DNA of 64,000 nt from Sulfuracidifex tepidarius. Its GTDB lineage: Archaea; Thermoproteota; Thermoprotei_A; Sulfolobales; Sulfolobaceae. Positions 11,592-18,379 of the stretch are shown one piece after another. Both the position numbers and the translations under genes were made by a program. The DNA lies in the NCBI RefSeq assembly GCF_008326425.1, contig NZ_AP018929.1:1626875-1690874 (forward strand), in the 5' to 3' direction. Below the pieces are notes generated by a model. It did not search any database and had not been told where the DNA came from. It saw nothing but the letters and a program-made list of their open reading frames with translations. Within the stretch, counting starts at the first letter, position 1. Each line of letters opens with the position of its first letter.

Positions 11592-11665
11592 AGCGAGGTA
11601 GGCCAGCCTGGTAGGCCGCAGGGCTCATAACCCTGAGGTCCCTGGTTCAAATCCAGGCCTCGCTA
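11592..11665 (+). tRNA. Initiator tRNA-Met (CAT), CCA encoded
   Basis: Acceptor AGCGAGG pairs with CCTCGCT, so the terminal pair is A1-U72, as in archaeal initiators. The anticodon stem holds three G-C pairs (GGG-CTCATAA-CCC), the hallmark of initiator tRNA. T-arm CCTGG-TTCAAAT-CCAGG; discriminator A at 11665, followed by an encoded CCA (11666-11668). A TATA-like CTTTTAAGC lies about 40 bp upstream. The 3' half overlaps the minus-strand treZ end. Confidence 0.95.
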
Positions 11666-13334
11666 CCATTTCAATTAATGTGCTTGTCTCCCTCATGGTG
11701 TATTCTTGTCCATTTTCCTGTATTTTCCCGTGTTTGAAAAGTGGTTTTCCCTCTTCTTTTCTCACCTTTAATTCTTTGGAGAAGAAATTCAACGTACATC
11801 TTATATTTCCCCTTTGAAATTGTATCCATCCATCTCCGTAACCTATCTTGACTTTTCTATCGCACTTATTAGTAATGAAATTCCTCCTTATACTGATCAA
11901 GGTTATGTAAGCACTCAGTAACTCATTGTCAATCTTCCAGCTTAGTTTAGACGACATGAAAGTTGATTCAGCTTGTGGATCAGTTGTCTGTCCATTGTCT
12001 TTTTTCCTTCCTTCTCTTACTCCTTGTATTATAGAAGAATCTGAAAAGTCAGAGAAATATAAAAATGGATTAGTTTCTCCGTACTCTTCCCCCATGAATA
12101 ACATTGGGATATAAGGCGAGAGAATGTATAAGGCAGCCATCGCTACGTTCTTCTCTTTATCAACAAGAATCGAGATCCTCTCTCCATTACCTCTATTCCC
12201 TACCTGATCATGATTTTGGATGTATACTATGAAACGACATCCGTCCAAATCGCCTACCTTAGCGCCGAATACTTTATCCCTGAAAGGTGAGTAAACTCCA
12301 TCATAAACAAAGACGTCATTGAGGCTCTTAATTACGTGATCTAATTTCCCAAAATCCTGATAATATCCATCTCTCTCTTTCGTAACATAAGAATGGATTG
12401 CATGATGAAAGTCATCAGTCCATTGAGAATCTATACCATAACCACATTGAGCCTTTTCCCTCACTATCTTGGGATCGTTTAAATCACTCTCAGCTATAAC
12501 AATTTTACCCATCTGATGTACCTTCTCAGCTATTTCTTCAAGAATGTTAACTGGTGACATGTCGAAAATTGCATGTATAGCATCCAGCCTGAAACCGTCA
12601 ATGTCAAAGTATTTGATCCAATACTCTACATTAGATAATATCATTTCCCTTACCATATCGCTGCCTTTGCCATCCAGGTTGAAAGATAACCCCCAAGGTG
12701 ATCTGTACACAGAGGAGAAATAAGGACCTAATTTACCCAGGTAGTTCCCTTCAGGCCCAACGTGGTTGTAGATAACGTCTAACAGGATAAACATGCCTCT
12801 TTTGTGAACTTCATCTACCATCCTCCGGAAGGAGTAAGGTCCGCCGTAAGAGTTCTGAACGGCGAATAGGAAAGTCCCATCATATCCCCATCCTCTATTC
12901 CCTGGGAACTGACCTATTGGCATTATCTCTATTACGTTTACTCCTAGTTCCTTTATGTAATCTAATTTCTCTATCACCCCGTCGAAGTTTCCCTTTTCTG
13001 TAAATGTCCCTACGTGTACCTCGTAAATGACCATGTCGTCTTTTCTGATATTCCGTTTCGAAAACCTTTCCTCCAGATCTATGACTTCAGAAGGTCCATG
13101 AACACCTTCAGGTTGAAATCTGGAGAACGGATCTGGAATCTTCTCGCTCCCATTAGTTTCTATTAAATATCTAATTCCTGGTCTGAAGTCAGCCTCTCCT
13201 TCAAAAATACCTCTGTCTTTTCTATCCAACTCAATTTTAGTCCCATCTGTCGTGATTATAGATATCTTATTTATATTAGGAGCCCAATAAGAGAATTCAA
13301 TTTTATTCCCAACTTTTTTATGACCGAATAGCAT
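11625..13334 (-). CDS. treZ: Malto-oligosyltrehalose trehalohydrolase (TreZ)
   Basis: GH13 enzyme that releases trehalose from maltooligosyl-trehalose, the second step of the TreY/TreZ pathway; about 569 aa, close to Sulfolobus TreZ. Motifs include DVIYNHVGPEGNY, GFRLDAIHAI (nucleophile Asp), IVIAESDLND (acid/base Glu) and YIQNHDQVGNRGNGER. ATG 13334 is chosen: a TATA-like AACTTAAG near 13366-13374 would place transcription start close to it; an ATG at 13361 is possible. The last residues (ARPGFEPGTSGL) are translated from the antisense strand of initiator tRNA-Met, and the TGA lies opposite its anticodon loop. No treY or treX is nearby. Confidence 0.93.
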   Translation of the reverse strand: MLFGHKKVGNKIEFSYWAPNINKISIITTDGTKIELDRKDRGIFEGEADFRPGIRYLIETNGSEKIPDPFSRFQPEGVHGPSEVIDLEERFSKRNIRKDDMVIYEVHVGTFTEKGNFDGVIEKLDYIKELGVNVIEIMPIGQFPGNRGWGYDGTFLFAVQNSYGGPYSFRRMVDEVHKRGMFILLDVIYNHVGPEGNYLGKLGPYFSSVYRSPWGLSFNLDGKGSDMVREMILSNVEYWIKYFDIDGFRLDAIHAIFDMSPVNILEEIAEKVHQMGKIVIAESDLNDPKIVREKAQCGYGIDSQWTDDFHHAIHSYVTKERDGYYQDFGKLDHVIKSLNDVFVYDGVYSPFRDKVFGAKVGDLDGCRFIVYIQNHDQVGNRGNGERISILVDKEKNVAMAALYILSPYIPMLFMGEEYGETNPFLYFSDFSDSSIIQGVREGRKKDNGQTTDPQAESTFMSSKLSWKIDNELLSAYITLISIRRNFITNKCDRKVKIGYGDGWIQFQRGNIRCTLNFFSKELKVRKEEGKPLFKHGKIQENGQEYTMRETSTLIEMVARPGFEPGTSGL

Positions 13335-13458
13335 CACTAAACATGAAATAATCAGCTCCATGTTACTTAAGTTTTGTAAAGGTATGCCAAGATATAGCTA
13401 CTCTTTTATATGAAAACGAATTACGATCATCTAAATGATGATATAAATAAAACTATGA

Positions 13459-14394
13459 TTGAGTGATATAGCGAGGCAGCCACTGATGTTATTTGCGGGA
13501 GTTGATCCAGGAAGTGAGAGCTATGCTTTCTCTATCATTAATGAAGTTGGAAATCAGGTTTCATATTTCGAGATTCCTACGCAGTCAATACCGCATTACT
13601 CTCTTTCTGCAGTGCGTAGGCTTTTGGATTACAAGCCTTACTGTATAGCTCTACCTTCAGGCCATGGTCTTCCCCTCGTCAGGGGTAACCAGTTAAACGA
13701 CGAATATATAGCACTTCTCACACTTTCAAAGTCTAAGGAAGGCCCTCTTCATTCGATATTGAATGCGTTCAGGTTCATGATAATTAATTCCTTCACTATT
13801 CCCTCCGTTGTAGAAATTGAATCGGTTCCGATTTACAGGAAGATATGGATAGATATGGGTACAGCAGACAAGGTAGCATCAGCATTCTTTTATAGGGCTT
13901 ACTTGTCGCTTTCAGACTTCGTGCTTTTAGAGATGGGTAGACACTTTTCTTCCATAATGGTAGTCAAGGATGGTAAAATCATAGACGGGTTTGGAGGGAC
14001 CGTGATACCAGGTCTAGCTTCGCCTGGAGCCATAGATGGAGAAGTTGTCTATCTGCTTAATAAGGCAGGAATTTCCGTGGATAAAGAAACTATTTATTCA
14101 GGTTCAAACGAGGAAAGATCAATAGAGATCTTAGAGATGATTTCTTCTTCCCTTGCCCATAAATACGATAGCAAAATAATAGTCTCTGGTCCTGCTAAGG
14201 ATAAGATATCTATCGGAGAGAAAATGAACCTTCCTTTTAAAGAAGCAGCTATTGGATCTGCAATGATAGCGTCTGGGATATGTGGATACGCTTATAGAGA
14301 TTACATTGATATGCTTAAAAGTAACGGTAATCCTGTTTCGTTCATGAGGTTGAAGGGATGGGACGAAGTTGTTTCTTGGATAAAGACGTTGTGA
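13459..14394 (+). CDS. DUF1464 protein, acetate/butyrate-kinase-like fold
   Basis: A 311-aa protein that I recognise as the archaeal DUF1464 family (distantly related to ASKHA kinases such as butyrate kinase). Support: N-terminal AGVDPGSESYAFSIIN, which resembles the phosphate-1 motif of ASKHA proteins, VLLEMGRHFSSIMVVKDGKI and GFGGTVIPGLASPGAIDGEV in the middle, and IVSGPAKDKI further on. Start is TTG 13459 (MSDIARQ) or ATG 13486. It overlaps the next gene by 37 bp and heads a four-gene cluster with a nucleotidyltransferase, a CitG-like enzyme and a phosphoesterase-like protein. The substrate is unknown. Confidence 0.75.
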   Translation: MSDIARQPLMLFAGVDPGSESYAFSIINEVGNQVSYFEIPTQSIPHYSLSAVRRLLDYKPYCIALPSGHGLPLVRGNQLNDEYIALLTLSKSKEGPLHSILNAFRFMIINSFTIPSVVEIESVPIYRKIWIDMGTADKVASAFFYRAYLSLSDFVLLEMGRHFSSIMVVKDGKIIDGFGGTVIPGLASPGAIDGEVVYLLNKAGISVDKETIYSGSNEERSIEILEMISSSLAHKYDSKIIVSGPAKDKISIGEKMNLPFKEAAIGSAMIASGICGYAYRDYIDMLKSNGNPVSFMRLKGWDEVVSWIKTL

Positions 14395-15269
14395 TAGATA
14401 AAGAAGGGAAAGGCATCTTCCAAGTCATAACGAACTATGATACAGCCAGGATGGGTTTCGTTTTCGCAATGCTGAAATATGAAAGAAATCAAAGCGGGTT
14501 GTGGAGAGGATACAGTAGAGTTCTGAAGAACTACGGGGTACATAATCTTGTTAAATTACCTCAAAAATTTGAATATCAACCATGTTTAGATGTAAGTTTT
14601 CCTATAGTCTATTCGTCAGAGATAGGAAAGCATCTAAAACCAGAAGAGGGGTTAGATAAAGTAATTAAGGGAAGAGTTAAGGAGGAGTTCTCAGATGTAA
14701 TACTTTCCATAGTGGATACTGTGGGATCTAGCGGACTAGGGATCGGAGGATCTATACTTACTGGTTTATATCATGGGAACTCCGACATAGACGTAATAGT
14801 ATATGGAAAGAGATCCTTAGAGGTTTACTTTTCCATGAGCCTCACGCCTGACAAGGAGTGGATCATCGAGACCTCTAGAAATTACGGAATATCATTAGAA
14901 CAGGCCAGAGAGCTTTACGATCCTAGAAGAAGGGGAATTATGATGGGTAAAAAGGTCTCAGTAAACTTCGTTGATGAGAGAACCCAAAAGCTGTGTGATA
15001 ACGTTTGCGTACAGAAGGGTAAAGTTAGCTTTGAAGCTTCAGTTGAAAAGGAACAAATTGAAGCTCTGTTCTATCCTTCCATAGTCAAATGCGATGGAAG
15101 CTCAGACTTGAAGATAAGTGAGATAGTTTCTTACGAAGGAATTTTTTCGTCTCTCCTATTTAATGGAGGAAGATTCCATGTTGAAGGGGTCTTGATGGAG
15201 TGCGATGACGGGAATAAGGTGATAATAGGTGACAGGAACTTTAGAGGAAATATTAGAAGAGTTATGTGA
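14358..15269 (+). CDS. Predicted nucleotidyltransferase (COG1665-like)
   Basis: A 303-aa protein with a clear polymerase-beta-type nucleotidyltransferase motif at residues 130-146: GGSILTGLYHGNSDIDV, that is, a G-S...SDIDV arrangement with the two metal-binding Asp. A conserved N-terminal domain precedes it, and a C-terminal region ends RNFRGNIRRVM. The architecture fits the archaeal family COG1665, whose function is unknown. It overlaps DUF1464 upstream (37 bp) and the CitG-like gene downstream (41 bp), so the three are probably co-translated. It could transfer a nucleotide-like group made by the CitG homologue; that is inference only. Confidence 0.75.
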   Translation: MGRSCFLDKDVVIDKEGKGIFQVITNYDTARMGFVFAMLKYERNQSGLWRGYSRVLKNYGVHNLVKLPQKFEYQPCLDVSFPIVYSSEIGKHLKPEEGLDKVIKGRVKEEFSDVILSIVDTVGSSGLGIGGSILTGLYHGNSDIDVIVYGKRSLEVYFSMSLTPDKEWIIETSRNYGISLEQARELYDPRRRGIMMGKKVSVNFVDERTQKLCDNVCVQKGKVSFEASVEKEQIEALFYPSIVKCDGSSDLKISEIVSYEGIFSSLLFNGGRFHVEGVLMECDDGNKVIIGDRNFRGNIRRVM

Positions 15270-16155
15270 GGAGGTCTCTCTAATTCTAGCTTCGTCCTCT
15301 TTAGAGGAGGCGTTAGTGAACAAACCAGGCAATGCGTCACGAAGGAAGGACATAAGGTCGGTAACATATATCTCGGTTCAGCAGAGTTCACTCTATCTCT
15401 CGTCAATATATAAGAAGGCATGTGTGATGGGGTATGCAGGCAGAGGCAAACCAATTTTCTCTCTTCTGGATCCAGCTAGATTCAGTTCCATTTTTGGCAG
15501 AGGGTTTGCGTTATTCGGTACCGCCATAACTCTTTTGCCGGTTTCCTTTGCGGCAATTCAGGTATCGAGCATAGACGAATTGATGGGAAAACTCAAGTCG
15601 CTAGTTCTTCTTCTTGACGAAAAGGAAGGGGAAGCTTTCATTCTCTCGCTCAGGTCAATGAATCCGTCATATAAGGGTAGATTAACGGGAGATATGGACA
15701 TCGGCTCTATAGAGGGCAAGACCTTACGTGAAATTCTGCTTTACTCTTCTAACTTCGACGAAGTAGCAAGGAATATTGTTCATGGATATTACCTAACTTA
15801 TCTGGGGTATAATGCGATAAAAGAACAAAAATGTGATTCCTTTGAACTGAACGTAAGACGGGCGTTCTTCAAGGTACTATCGTCTCAGCCGGACACTTTG
15901 ATCATGAAGAAATACGGGGCCCATGTATCAATCGAAATATCAAAAATGGCATCTCATATGAGTGAGTGCCCCTCCTGCGAGGAAATTGAGAACATGGACA
16001 AATACATGACGGAGAACGGGTTTAACCCTGGATCCACCGCAGATATAATAGCCTCTTCAATAGCTTTCTATCACTTAGAGAGGTGGTTCAGAGATAAGGC
16101 TATTGATGGTATCCGGCTTCCCCTGCCTAAGGGGTGCGATAGAGCAGGTAAATAG
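15229..16155 (+). CDS. Triphosphoribosyl-dephospho-CoA synthase family protein (CitG/MdcB-like)
   Basis: A 308-aa member of the CitG/MdcB family, which in bacteria condenses ATP and dephospho-CoA into the precursor of the citrate lyase/malonate decarboxylase prosthetic group. Family marks: VNKPGNASRRKD near residue 30, a helical middle, and near the end NPGSTADIIASSIAFYHLE, the conserved NPG(S/T)TAD motif. No citrate lyase or malonate decarboxylase genes are in the window, so the archaeal substrate is probably different. GTG start at 15229 overlaps the nucleotidyltransferase gene by 41 bp. Confidence 0.82.
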   Translation: MTGTLEEILEELCEEVSLILASSSLEEALVNKPGNASRRKDIRSVTYISVQQSSLYLSSIYKKACVMGYAGRGKPIFSLLDPARFSSIFGRGFALFGTAITLLPVSFAAIQVSSIDELMGKLKSLVLLLDEKEGEAFILSLRSMNPSYKGRLTGDMDIGSIEGKTLREILLYSSNFDEVARNIVHGYYLTYLGYNAIKEQKCDSFELNVRRAFFKVLSSQPDTLIMKKYGAHVSIEISKMASHMSECPSCEEIENMDKYMTENGFNPGSTADIIASSIAFYHLERWFRDKAIDGIRLPLPKGCDRAGK

Positions 16156-16156
16156 G

Positions 16157-16588
16157 TTGAACTTCGATGAGACAATAGGCCTTGGGGATATAGAATGTCC
16201 TCAACTCTTCAGAAACTTCCACGGAATACTTGGAGAGATGGACTCAGTGCATACATTCAAAGAGATGGATAGAAAAGGCATGCTCATCAAGGACCGCTTT
16301 TCTGTACTTTCGATAGACTTCTCAACGCATTATGTGATGTCTCACTTTCCACCATTAGGGTCTCACACCGGAAACATAATCGGAAAAGAGGAGGGTAACT
16401 CCAAAGTTACTGCGTCTTTGCTGAAAAATAAACCCAAAATTCTATTTCACGGTCATAGCGAGGCACAAGGAATAGGTGAGATAATGGGAACTACTGTTGT
16501 ATCTGTAGGAAGTCTTCTACGAGGCCATTATGTTATATTTGAAACTGATAACTTAGCGTTTGAACTCGGCAATCTCACATTTTCTTGA
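16157..16588 (+). CDS. Metallophosphoesterase-like protein, short, first metal motif not seen
   Basis: About 143 aa from TTG 16157, placed one base after the CitG-like stop; an in-frame TTG at 16103 would add 18 residues. The C-terminal half resembles Icc/COG2129-type phosphoesterases: YVMSHFPPLG, then FHGHSEAQGIG, then VVSVGSLLRGHYVIFETD, in the order SH-PP-G / GH-HE / PGS-RG-Y. The N-terminal DxH metal site expected 25-35 residues before GLGDIECP is missing from either start. It is therefore a short or degenerate member; catalysis is uncertain. It is the last gene of the DUF1464 cluster. Confidence 0.6.
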   Translation: MNFDETIGLGDIECPQLFRNFHGILGEMDSVHTFKEMDRKGMLIKDRFSVLSIDFSTHYVMSHFPPLGSHTGNIIGKEEGNSKVTASLLKNKPKILFHGHSEAQGIGEIMGTTVVSVGSLLRGHYVIFETDNLAFELGNLTFS

Positions 16589-16601
16589 AATTATCATGTT
16601 T

Positions 16602-17108
16602 TTAAAGGAGTGAAGCTGCCATCAAATAAGCGTCTTCGCCGTCAGCGTAATATCCCCTCAAGAGTTTGACTTTCTTATATCCGTTCTTTTCATACATACC
16701 GATGGCATTATCATTGCTTACTCTCACCTCAAGGTAAACCTCTTCTGCCTTGTATTTTTCTTTCATAGCTTTCATAGATTCTCTGAGGAGAGCAGTTCCT
16801 ATTCCCATCTTTCTGTAAGGACTTTCTACAGCTATGGAAACTATGTGCCCTTTCTTTACAATTGAAGGTATTTGCTTGAAGTTACTGAAGCCCCATTCTA
16901 TTCTAGGCATAACGTAACCAACCACATTATAATTTACAAGCCCCACAAAGAACGCTAACCCGTATTCCTTCAAATGTTCTACGAAGAAGTAATGTGGATA
17001 GTTTTCTGGTAGCGAGTCTCTGTTAATTCTGATTATTTGTTCTACGTCGTCCATTCTTGCGTTCCTTATTGTGAAGGACGAGCTTTTGTTGAATTCTGCA
17101 AACTCCAC
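16602..17108 (-). CDS. N-terminal acetyltransferase (Ard1/RimI type)
   Basis: A 168-aa GNAT-fold enzyme very like the Sulfolobus Ard1 N-alpha-acetyltransferase, which modifies Ser/Ala/Met N-termini of many proteins. The acetyl-CoA loop YRKMGIGTALL (about residues 97-107), VYLEVRVSNDNAIGMYEKNG and YYADGEDAYLM near the end are diagnostic. It is convergent with the gene at 16157 (13 bp gap) and divergent from coaBC, with 44 bp between start codons. Confidence 0.92.
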   Translation of the reverse strand: MEFAEFNKSSSFTIRNARMDDVEQIIRINRDSLPENYPHYFFVEHLKEYGLAFFVGLVNYNVVGYVMPRIEWGFSNFKQIPSIVKKGHIVSIAVESPYRKMGIGTALLRESMKAMKEKYKAEEVYLEVRVSNDNAIGMYEKNGYKKVKLLRGYYADGEDAYLMAASLL

Positions 17109-17152
17109 AGATTACGTTTTTATTGGAAGCTAATATATATGTGTCTGATCCA

Positions 17153-18379
17153 ATGGTACACCCTTCTAAGAAAATATTGCAAAGCAGAGGTCAATTATTC
17201 GGTAAACGCATCGTTTTGGGAGTAACTGCCAGTGTTTCCCTGTATAAGTCTTTGGATCTAGCTAGAGATTTGATGAGAAATGGGGCCGACATACACGTTG
17301 TCATGACTAGGGCAGCAGCGAAGCTAATTTCCCCCGAGATGTTTCGTTGGGCAACGGGGAACAACGTCGTGACAAAAATAACTGGAGAGATAGAACACGT
17401 GGAGCTCTCAGAGATGGACTCGATGGTAATAGCCCCTGCTACGATGAATACTTTAGTAAAGTTAGCTTACGGTATTTCCGACAACTCAGTATTACTGACT
17501 GCAATGAACTTTCTTGGAGAAAAGAAGACGGTATTTGTTGTCCCAGCCATGCATTTATCTATGTATCAGACTAACCAGTTGAATGAAGCAATACAGAAGC
17601 TTAGAGAAGACGGAATTGTAGTGCTTAAGCCTTACCTCAGAGAAGATGTTGCGCATTACCCAGACATTCCTCTAATGACTTGGGAAATATCCAGCGTATT
17701 GTTGAGAGGAAAAGACTTATCCAATTATAAGATCTTGGTTACTGCAGGTCCAACTAGAGAGTTCATGGATCCTGTGCGATTCATTAGTAACCCCAGTAGC
17801 GGAACTATGGGTGTAGCTATCGCTAATGAGGCGTACTTTAGAGGTGCTTCTGTTAGGCTTGTTCATGGACCACTGTCCACTCATCTGTCGCCTGTGATGT
17901 GGGACAGGAGAGAAGTTAGGACTACTCAGGAAATGATGGAAGAGGTGAAACGTGGGGTAGAAGAGGGATTCTCTATAGTGATACTAGCAGGCGCTCCTGC
18001 CGATTTCTCTTTCTCTACCAAGTTTGAAGGTAAGATAGATACCCATGGAGAAATCCCTAAGTTAGAGTTGACTAAAACTCCTAAGATATCTTCTGTCGCA
18101 GTAGGTAAAGCTTTCGTTGTTGGCTTCTCAGCAGAGACTGTGAACAGTGAGGTAGAGTTATTGGAGAAAGCCAAAGCTAAGATGAATAGACACGGCTTTG
18201 ATATCATCATTACAAATAACGTATCGAGAAGCGACATAGGCTTTAACTCTACTCAAAACGAAGTTACGGTCATTACTAAGAAGAGACAGATCAAGCTTGA
18301 TAAGGATGATAAAGTAATTATAGCCAGAAGAATTTTAGATATAGTAAAGGACGAGGTAGAAGAAGGTAGAAGAGTTTAA
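17153..18379 (+). CDS. coaBC: Bifunctional phosphopantothenoylcysteine decarboxylase/phosphopantothenate-cysteine ligase
   Basis: Coenzyme A biosynthesis; about 408 aa, normal for archaeal CoaBC. The N-terminal flavoprotein (CoaC) half shows GVTASVSLYKSLDLARDLM and IAPATMNTLVKLAYGISDN; PAMHLSMYQT replaces the more usual PAMN motif. The C-terminal CoaB half has VTAGPTREFMDPVRFISNPS, SSGTMGVAIANEA and the AGAPADFSF block. ATG 17153 is preferred to the TTG ten codons upstream, since homologues begin shortly before the conserved KxxxSR...GKRI segment. tRNA-His follows by 31 bp. Confidence 0.93.
   Translation: MVHPSKKILQSRGQLFGKRIVLGVTASVSLYKSLDLARDLMRNGADIHVVMTRAAAKLISPEMFRWATGNNVVTKITGEIEHVELSEMDSMVIAPATMNTLVKLAYGISDNSVLLTAMNFLGEKKTVFVVPAMHLSMYQTNQLNEAIQKLREDGIVVLKPYLREDVAHYPDIPLMTWEISSVLLRGKDLSNYKILVTAGPTREFMDPVRFISNPSSGTMGVAIANEAYFRGASVRLVHGPLSTHLSPVMWDRREVRTTQEMMEEVKRGVEEGFSIVILAGAPADFSFSTKFEGKIDTHGEIPKLELTKTPKISSVAVGKAFVVGFSAETVNSEVELLEKAKAKMNRHGFDIIITNNVSRSDIGFNSTQNEVTVITKKRQIKLDKDDKVIIARRILDIVKDEVEEGRRV

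Follow-up and report, generated by a model that had tools for sequence, protein, structure and literature searches.

What do the products of four overlapping genes build in Sulfuracidifex tepidarius? The genes lie at positions 13459-16588 of a 64,000-nucleotide stretch of this archaeon's genome (contig NZ_AP018929.1, positions 1,626,875 to 1,690,874), hereafter called the window, whose numbering is used throughout unless stated otherwise. They encode, in order, a DUF1464 protein, a nucleotidyltransferase (NT), a CitG homologue and a phosphoesterase-like protein (PE). The operon was assigned to a methanopterin-like carrier from gene neighbourhoods: three of its genes have relatives that adjoin known methanopterin-building genes in many archaea, and for one of them this extends to bacteria. 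It is very probably part of the biosynthesis of a carrier of the tetrahydromethanopterin (H4MPT) type. The best explanation as a whole, that the operon provides late steps in making such a carrier (sulfopterin in Sulfolobus), we consider probable, short of confident.

Gene neighbourhoods and co-occurrence in archaea

A single run in a locus from the same order as the window (L118) contains a nucleotidyltransferase, DUF447, DUF1464, MptD (PF04038), a homologue of the dihydromethanopterin reductase model TIGR02700 that scores below the model cut-off, a DHPS-like gene (TIGR00284), RFAP synthase (RFAPS, TIGR00144), MptE (PF01973) and MptA (TIGR00294). RFAPS was next to or near DUF1464 in 8 of the 12 DUF1464 loci read outside Sulfolobaceae, and DUF1464, CitG or NT was found beside H4MPT biosynthesis genes in L112-L114 and L117-L121. 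More distant lineages carry comparable runs: CitG-DUF447-DmrX-DHPS-like-DUF1464-RFAPS in Hadesarchaea (L131, L134), CitG-NT-DUF447-RFAPS-DHPS-like in Bathyarchaeia (L135, L137, L147, L151, L157), DUF1464-DmrX-MptE-DUF447-CitG-NT-NT in another of the Bathyarchaeia (L139), RFAPS-DUF1464-DHPS-like-MptA-NT-NT in Asgard Helarchaeota (L234) and CitG-DUF447-DmrX-DHPS-like in Halobacteriota (G283). Linkage to H4MPT genes was also seen in Bathyarchaeia L140 and in a Thermoprotei metagenome-assembled genome (L149). The Hadesarchaea and Bathyarchaeia loci and L149 came from a scan of named genomes with a narrow CitG alignment, a diverse one being too variable for scanning contigs. CitG, NT and DUF1464 are thus well-supported members of the gene set for H4MPT-type biosynthesis. 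In some Bathyarchaeia, CitG and NT stand beside fwd or ftr genes. A role in the methanofuran side chain was judged less likely, because there are also clusters in which CitG accompanies RFAPS, DUF447 and DHPS-like genes and fwd is absent; the different assignment of bacterial methylofuran genes likewise counts against it (PMC8141765).

Co-occurrence was surveyed in 200 Thermoproteota genomes and the window's own, searched for DUF1464, CitG, RFAPS, DUF447, NT and Mch. Presence sets were compiled by hand with an RFAPS threshold of E <= 1e-15, and a few weak DUF447 matches were dropped. NT and CitG occurred together in 90 of these 201 genomes, NT alone in 9, CitG alone in none and neither in 102; the NT profile derives in part from sequences adjoining CitG, a mild circularity, and NT was still found in the nine genomes without CitG. 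For NT and either RFAPS or Mch, 96 genomes had both, 3 only the first, 4 only the second and 98 neither. The corresponding counts were 88, 2, 12 and 99 for CitG and either RFAPS or Mch, 51, 1, 25 and 124 for DUF1464 and RFAPS, and 67, 1, 9 and 124 for DUF447 and RFAPS. Fisher values were extreme and are descriptive only, as the genomes share ancestry.

These counts also bear on the idea that only convenience joins the four genes in one operon and that their functions are unrelated. Outside Sulfolobaceae the genes are as a rule not linked to one another, as that idea would have it: DUF1464 and CitG genes are usually distant from each other in the other Thermoproteota, and among the loci read all four genes share one operon in Sulfolobaceae only. 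Against it stand the strong co-occurrence and a linkage to one and the same set of H4MPT genes that recurs across lineages; these leave it hardly any probability. A first-pass annotation of the window had read the four genes as one system, and the co-occurrence bears this out. It had set against its own reading the picture of genes scattered across archaea and never co-occurring; the scattering is mostly real outside Sulfolobaceae, the lack of co-occurrence is not.

Operon layout in Sulfolobaceae

Four co-directional open reading frames were confirmed on the + strand. Taken at their longest, they overlap their neighbours by 37, 41 and 53 bp, and the corresponding ranges across Sulfolobaceae are 34-46, 32-59 and 47-89 bp, barring one homologue called short. 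All 10 sampled genomes of Sulfolobaceae (L102-L110 and the window, six genera) keep the gene order, and the conservation of this order together with the recurring overlaps is well above chance. Overlaps of about 40 bp between the first genes had been annotated correctly. The last gene had been placed 1 bp after CitG; that start is wrong, because residues upstream of it are conserved in the homologues of the last gene. Its start is at 16103/16106, and the N-terminal strand so included (LMVSGFPC in the window) is conserved in 9/10 Sulfolobaceae homologues. For the first gene, the true start is probably the ATG at 13486 and not the TTG at 13459. A TATA-like element, gatataaata, read from the sequence at 13440-13449 (+), lies about 40 bp upstream of this ATG, and such an AT-rich element would fit a short leader. 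On the other side of it, an open reading frame at 11625-13361 (-) encodes a trehalohydrolase-like protein of the alpha-amylase family, with a C-terminus ending in MVARPGFEPGTSGL; this end resembles read-through into a non-coding (tRNA-like) region.

The encoded proteins and a putative pathway

The CitG-family protein (15229-16155, +) belongs to a derived Sulfolobaceae subfamily. It matches PF01874 at 113.8 bits (cut-off 27) and reaches 11.9 bits against the citrate-lyase CitG equivalog TIGR03125, for which the cut-off is 272.3. In a search of PDB sequences with the operon proteins, the third gene alone gave a relevant match (3h9p, a putative CitG). The window protein retains E27, K32-P33-G34, D177, D222, P267-G268 and D272. 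The Asn of the GxNT motif (GGNTxLG), present in 40/40 other homologues, is replaced by Phe93 in the window and by F or Y in 10/10 Sulfolobaceae.

CitG homology would also suit the synthesis of a coenzyme A (CoA)-type cofactor, triphosphoribosyl-dephospho-CoA, put on a protein by the nucleotidyltransferase. The gene coaBC (17123-18379, +) lies about 0.5 kb downstream of the operon and is nearby in 9/10 Sulfolobaceae. It is separated from the operon by a gene on the opposite strand, encoding a RimI-like acetyltransferase (16602-17108, -), an arrangement found in most Sulfolobaceae. The low score against true CitG, the lack of a CitX/MdcG family match for NT and the H4MPT-gene context across many lineages argue in the same direction and make a CoA-type product highly improbable. 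No citrate lyase or malonate decarboxylase partners were seen in the clusters inspected; no genome-wide search for them was made. The relatives sit with H4MPT genes, and the acceptor is therefore most likely a pterin-aryl-ribitol and not dephospho-CoA followed by an acyl-carrier protein. Thus, the archaeal cofactor pathway proposed in the first-pass annotation is supported, and its CoA-derived nucleotide prosthetic group on a protein is not supported. The operon may serve recycling instead of synthesis; nothing points that way.

NT (14358-15269, +) is a nucleotidyltransferase of the Pol-beta type (PF01909, 24.4 bits, cut-off 21). Its catalytic motif GIGGS...SDID (residues 128-145, 14739-14792, +) falls in invariant columns of both alignments made (A1 and A4): G128, G131, S132, S142, D143 and D145 do not vary, and the GSx9-10(S)DxD signature is present in the family without exception. 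MdcG has the same GSx9-10DxD nucleotidyltransferase signature. CitX and MdcG profiles gave no match for NT, which at E<=1 hit only PF01909, PF18765 and PF22600, and nothing in NCBIfam. An AlphaFold2 model (pLDDT 85, pTM 0.84) retrieved nothing below E 0.001 from the PDB with Foldseek; the weak matches were OB-fold proteins and, lower, poly(A) polymerase and other nucleotidyltransferases. In a phylogenetic tree, the window NT groups with the single copies of Methanobrevibacter, anaerobic methanotrophic (ANME) archaea and other Halobacteriota in a clade ('NT-B') with support of 100/100.

The family has a wider distribution. Homologues were found on 21 Streptomyces plasmids; in three of these loci (L257, L258, L259) the homologue adjoins a phosphotransferase-like gene, often with a histidine phosphatase or an S-adenosylmethionine-dependent methyltransferase, and no H4MPT genes lie near it, an unrelated use of the family. 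Bathyarchaeia-like loci (L073, L089, L096, L098, L100) carry three NT paralogues beside CitG, and several adjoin a formylmethanofuran dehydrogenase operon; Mch without an RFAPS match occurs in some of these genomes. Haloarchaea-like genomes of the Halobacteriota sample (G225-G343) keep CitG and a divergent RFAPS homologue, and NT is absent.

The DUF1464 protein (13459-14394, +; PF07318, 280 bits, E 3e-83) appears to be related to kinases of the ASKHA/acyl-kinase type. Two phosphate-loop-like motifs, G14-D16-P17-G18 and D176-G177-x-G179-G180, are conserved in at least 95% of 21 homologues, and the C-terminal half of one homologue gave a match to butyrate kinase (NF002834, 5e-11). AlphaFold gave a pLDDT of 33 from an alignment of just 5 sequences. 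A genome search did not find DUF1464 in the methanogen and haloarchaeal control genomes. That the protein is a kinase of the carrier pathway is a doubtful proposal.

The apparent relation to acid kinases enters into another possible scheme, in which NT would activate a phospho-acid with a nucleoside triphosphate (NTP), as CofC does with 2-phospho-lactate in coenzyme F420 synthesis, another enzyme would transfer it, and the CitG product would be a ribosyl monophosphate only. Ordinary NTPs are used by many Pol-beta enzymes, and F420 synthesis offers an analogy. Reading of the clusters revealed no partner resembling CofD, for which no profile search was made, and the absence of DUF1464 from the controls shows that it is not a general acid kinase of H4MPT makers. 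We regard a CofC-like role as improbable.

PE (16103-16588, +) is related to calcineurin-like phosphoesterases and falls below the cut-offs of PF14582 (25.0 against 28.2) and PF12850. Across Sulfolobaceae, DxH has become SGF-like residues, GHxH has become GHSx and GN has become GE or GD. The two-metal ligand set (DxH, GD, GN, H, GHxH) is thus incomplete, with GD and the first GH retained in most.

Bacterial clusters help to separate the putative roles of CitG and NT. Phyllobacterium and Thiodictyon carry a cluster RFAPS-MtdB-MyfA-mch-MyfB-CitG-fae, with CitG between a RimK-family ligase and fae, and in Azospirillum CitG follows mch, near RFAPS. A CitG homologue is present on 20 of the 20 best RFAPS plasmids, and in proteobacterial plasmid H4MPT clusters this gene is annotated 'triphosphoribosyl-dephospho-CoA synthase'. 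Methylosinus has the order mch-orf5-orf7-fae, and Orf7 has been listed as a protein of the tetrahydromethanopterin-linked one-carbon transfer pathway (PMC3615186); from the gene order, methylotroph Orf7 would be a CitG homologue. The NT profile had no match in the Phyllobacterium, Thiodictyon and Azospirillum stretches. Bacterial dephospho-H4MPT is without the phosphate and the alpha-hydroxyglutarate (PMC8141765). Having CitG but no NT, and a carrier without these groups, is what one would predict for bacteria if the ribose were attached by CitG and the phosphodiester tail by NT.

RFAPS and DUF447 were found in 10/10 Sulfolobaceae genomes and a DHPS-like gene in all sampled relatives; the window's genome has all three. 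Mch was found in 0/10 Sulfolobaceae genomes. RFAP synthases of Sulfolobus have been placed in group I with the methanogen enzymes (PMC6787355), and the modified folate of Sulfolobus is sulfopterin (PMC3697235, PMC9931769, PMC3432047). A FolE-type GTP cyclohydrolase I-like gene, recognised by eye, lies about 5 kb from RFAPS in the window's genome (L247, 3626-4249, +), and this suggests that Sulfolobaceae start pterin synthesis with FolE and not MptA.

A possible order of reactions follows from known chemistry. The terminal part of H4MPT is an alpha-ribofuranosyl 5-phosphate in ester linkage with 2-hydroxyglutarate. CitG transfers an alpha-linked ribose-5-triphosphate from ATP onto dephospho-CoA, and CitX/MdcG use up the triphosphate of triphosphoribosyl-dephospho-CoA to form a phosphodiester. 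By analogy, RFAPS and the DHPS-like protein, encoded elsewhere in the genome, would make the pterin-aryl-ribose-phosphate core, which DUF447 may help to reduce. PE, if active, would remove the ribitol 5-phosphate before ribosyl transfer, a dephosphorylation step that we consider unlikely. The CitG homologue would then place a ribosyl-5-phosphate or -5-triphosphate onto the ribitol hydroxyl in alpha linkage, on the model of CitG with its substrates ATP and dephospho-CoA, and it is a fairly probable ribosyl transferase of the carrier pathway. NT would spend the activated ribose-5-(tri)phosphate in the manner of an NTP, forming a phosphodiester to the terminal group (2-hydroxyglutarate in H4MPT), as CitX/MdcG do with serine; this role in the tail is plausible, if just short of an even chance. 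DUF1464 would act as a kinase. We infer each of these reactions, the donor (ATP or phosphoribosyl pyrophosphate, PRPP), the Sulfolobus acceptor and the roles of DUF1464 and PE. A bolder reading, less likely than not, is that archaea make the tail by the two-step chemistry of the bacterial citrate-lyase prosthetic group: CitG would make a ribose-5-triphosphate conjugate from ATP that a hitherto unassigned Pol-beta NT spends as a pseudo-NTP to form the phosphodiester to the terminal hydroxy acid, bacteria would keep the first step only, and DUF1464 would be an extra, new kinase of the pathway in Thermoproteota, in Hadesarchaea and in part of the Asgard archaea.

Several observations weigh against this assignment or the steps attached to it. 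White reportedly found in 1996 that PRPP, not ATP, is the ribose donor in H4MPT synthesis. In the Thermoproteota survey, CitG and NT occur without an RFAPS match at the threshold in 17 genomes that have Mch. Among 120 Halobacteriota, 30 combine CitG and RFAPS with the absence of NT, which is therefore not universal for the H4MPT-type gene set, and in G283, whose 987-kb contig was read whole, the Mpt gene set is full and NT is absent. These NT-lacking Halobacteriota fit a peripheral tail step for NT better than a core step. Haloferax volcanii has CitG, an RFAPS-like protein and DUF447, but the use of tetrahydrofolate has been reported for haloarchaea (PMC8305020), and another or a modified role is therefore expected there. 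Sulfopterin may or may not carry a ribosyl-phosphate tail. With its GxNT Asn lost, the reaction of Sulfolobaceae CitG may have changed, and ordinary two-metal phosphatase activity of PE, which lacks metal-1 ligands, is doubtful.

The substituted Asn leads to a variant of the modified-folate operon in which the CitG chemistry of Sulfolobaceae has changed, with a new donor or acceptor (a sugar-phosphate of another kind, for instance), the tail is Sulfolobus-specific and DUF1464 supplies an activated group. The loss of this residue in all ten genomes while E27, KPG, D177, D222 and D272 remain would agree with it, as would the joining of DUF1464 to NT, CitG and PE in one operon only in Sulfolobaceae; these archaea are also without Mch, so that their carrier could be something other than true H4MPT. 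Against it, Sulfolobaceae CitG has kept most of the other conserved residues, and Sulfolobaceae NT falls in the same clade as methanogen NT. Such a change of chemistry appears unlikely.

Carriers of the methanopterin type hold a central place in methanogenesis, in the anaerobic oxidation of methane, in the one-carbon metabolism of archaea and in the methylotrophy of bacteria. The proteins of the H4MPT pathway still unknown were counted as 7 as of 2011 (PMC3087415). In the literature searched, which covered few subscription journals, we found neither an enzyme for the late steps that add the ribosyl and hydroxyglutarate groups nor anything tying CitG, DUF1464, COG1665 or COG1767 to an H4MPT-type pathway. 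CitG/Orf7, the COG1665-like NT and DUF1464 are thus candidate enzymes for late carrier steps, and the gaps become testable. If this assignment is true, the annotation 'triphosphoribosyl-dephospho-CoA synthase' on archaeal and methylotroph genes needs correcting.

Comparison with known systems

The operon shares with CitG/MdcB and CitX/MdcG the use of a CitG-family protein and a nucleotidyltransferase in one pathway, and the proposed logic, a ribosyl-triphosphate transfer followed by phosphodiester formation, would be common to both. It differs in the nucleotidyltransferase family and in the neighbourhood, its acceptor is proposed to be a small molecule and not a protein, and the conserved Asn of CitG/MdcB is lost in Sulfolobaceae. 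The tail of coenzyme F420, made by CofC and CofD, offers a similar chemical outcome, a hydroxy acid attached to a carrier through a phosphodiester, by way of other protein families. The methylotroph H4MPT/methylofuran cluster likewise places a CitG-family protein with H4MPT enzymes, RFAPS, DUF447 and a DHPS-like protein; unlike the Sulfolobaceae operon, it has no NT in the three clusters read and no DUF1464, and its product is dephospho-H4MPT. The methanogen pathway to H4MPT (MptA, B, D, E, RFAPS, DHPS-like, MptN) resembles the archaeal system in its gene set, co-occurrence, repeated linkage and NT-B clade, whereas Sulfolobaceae are without Mch and have DUF1464.

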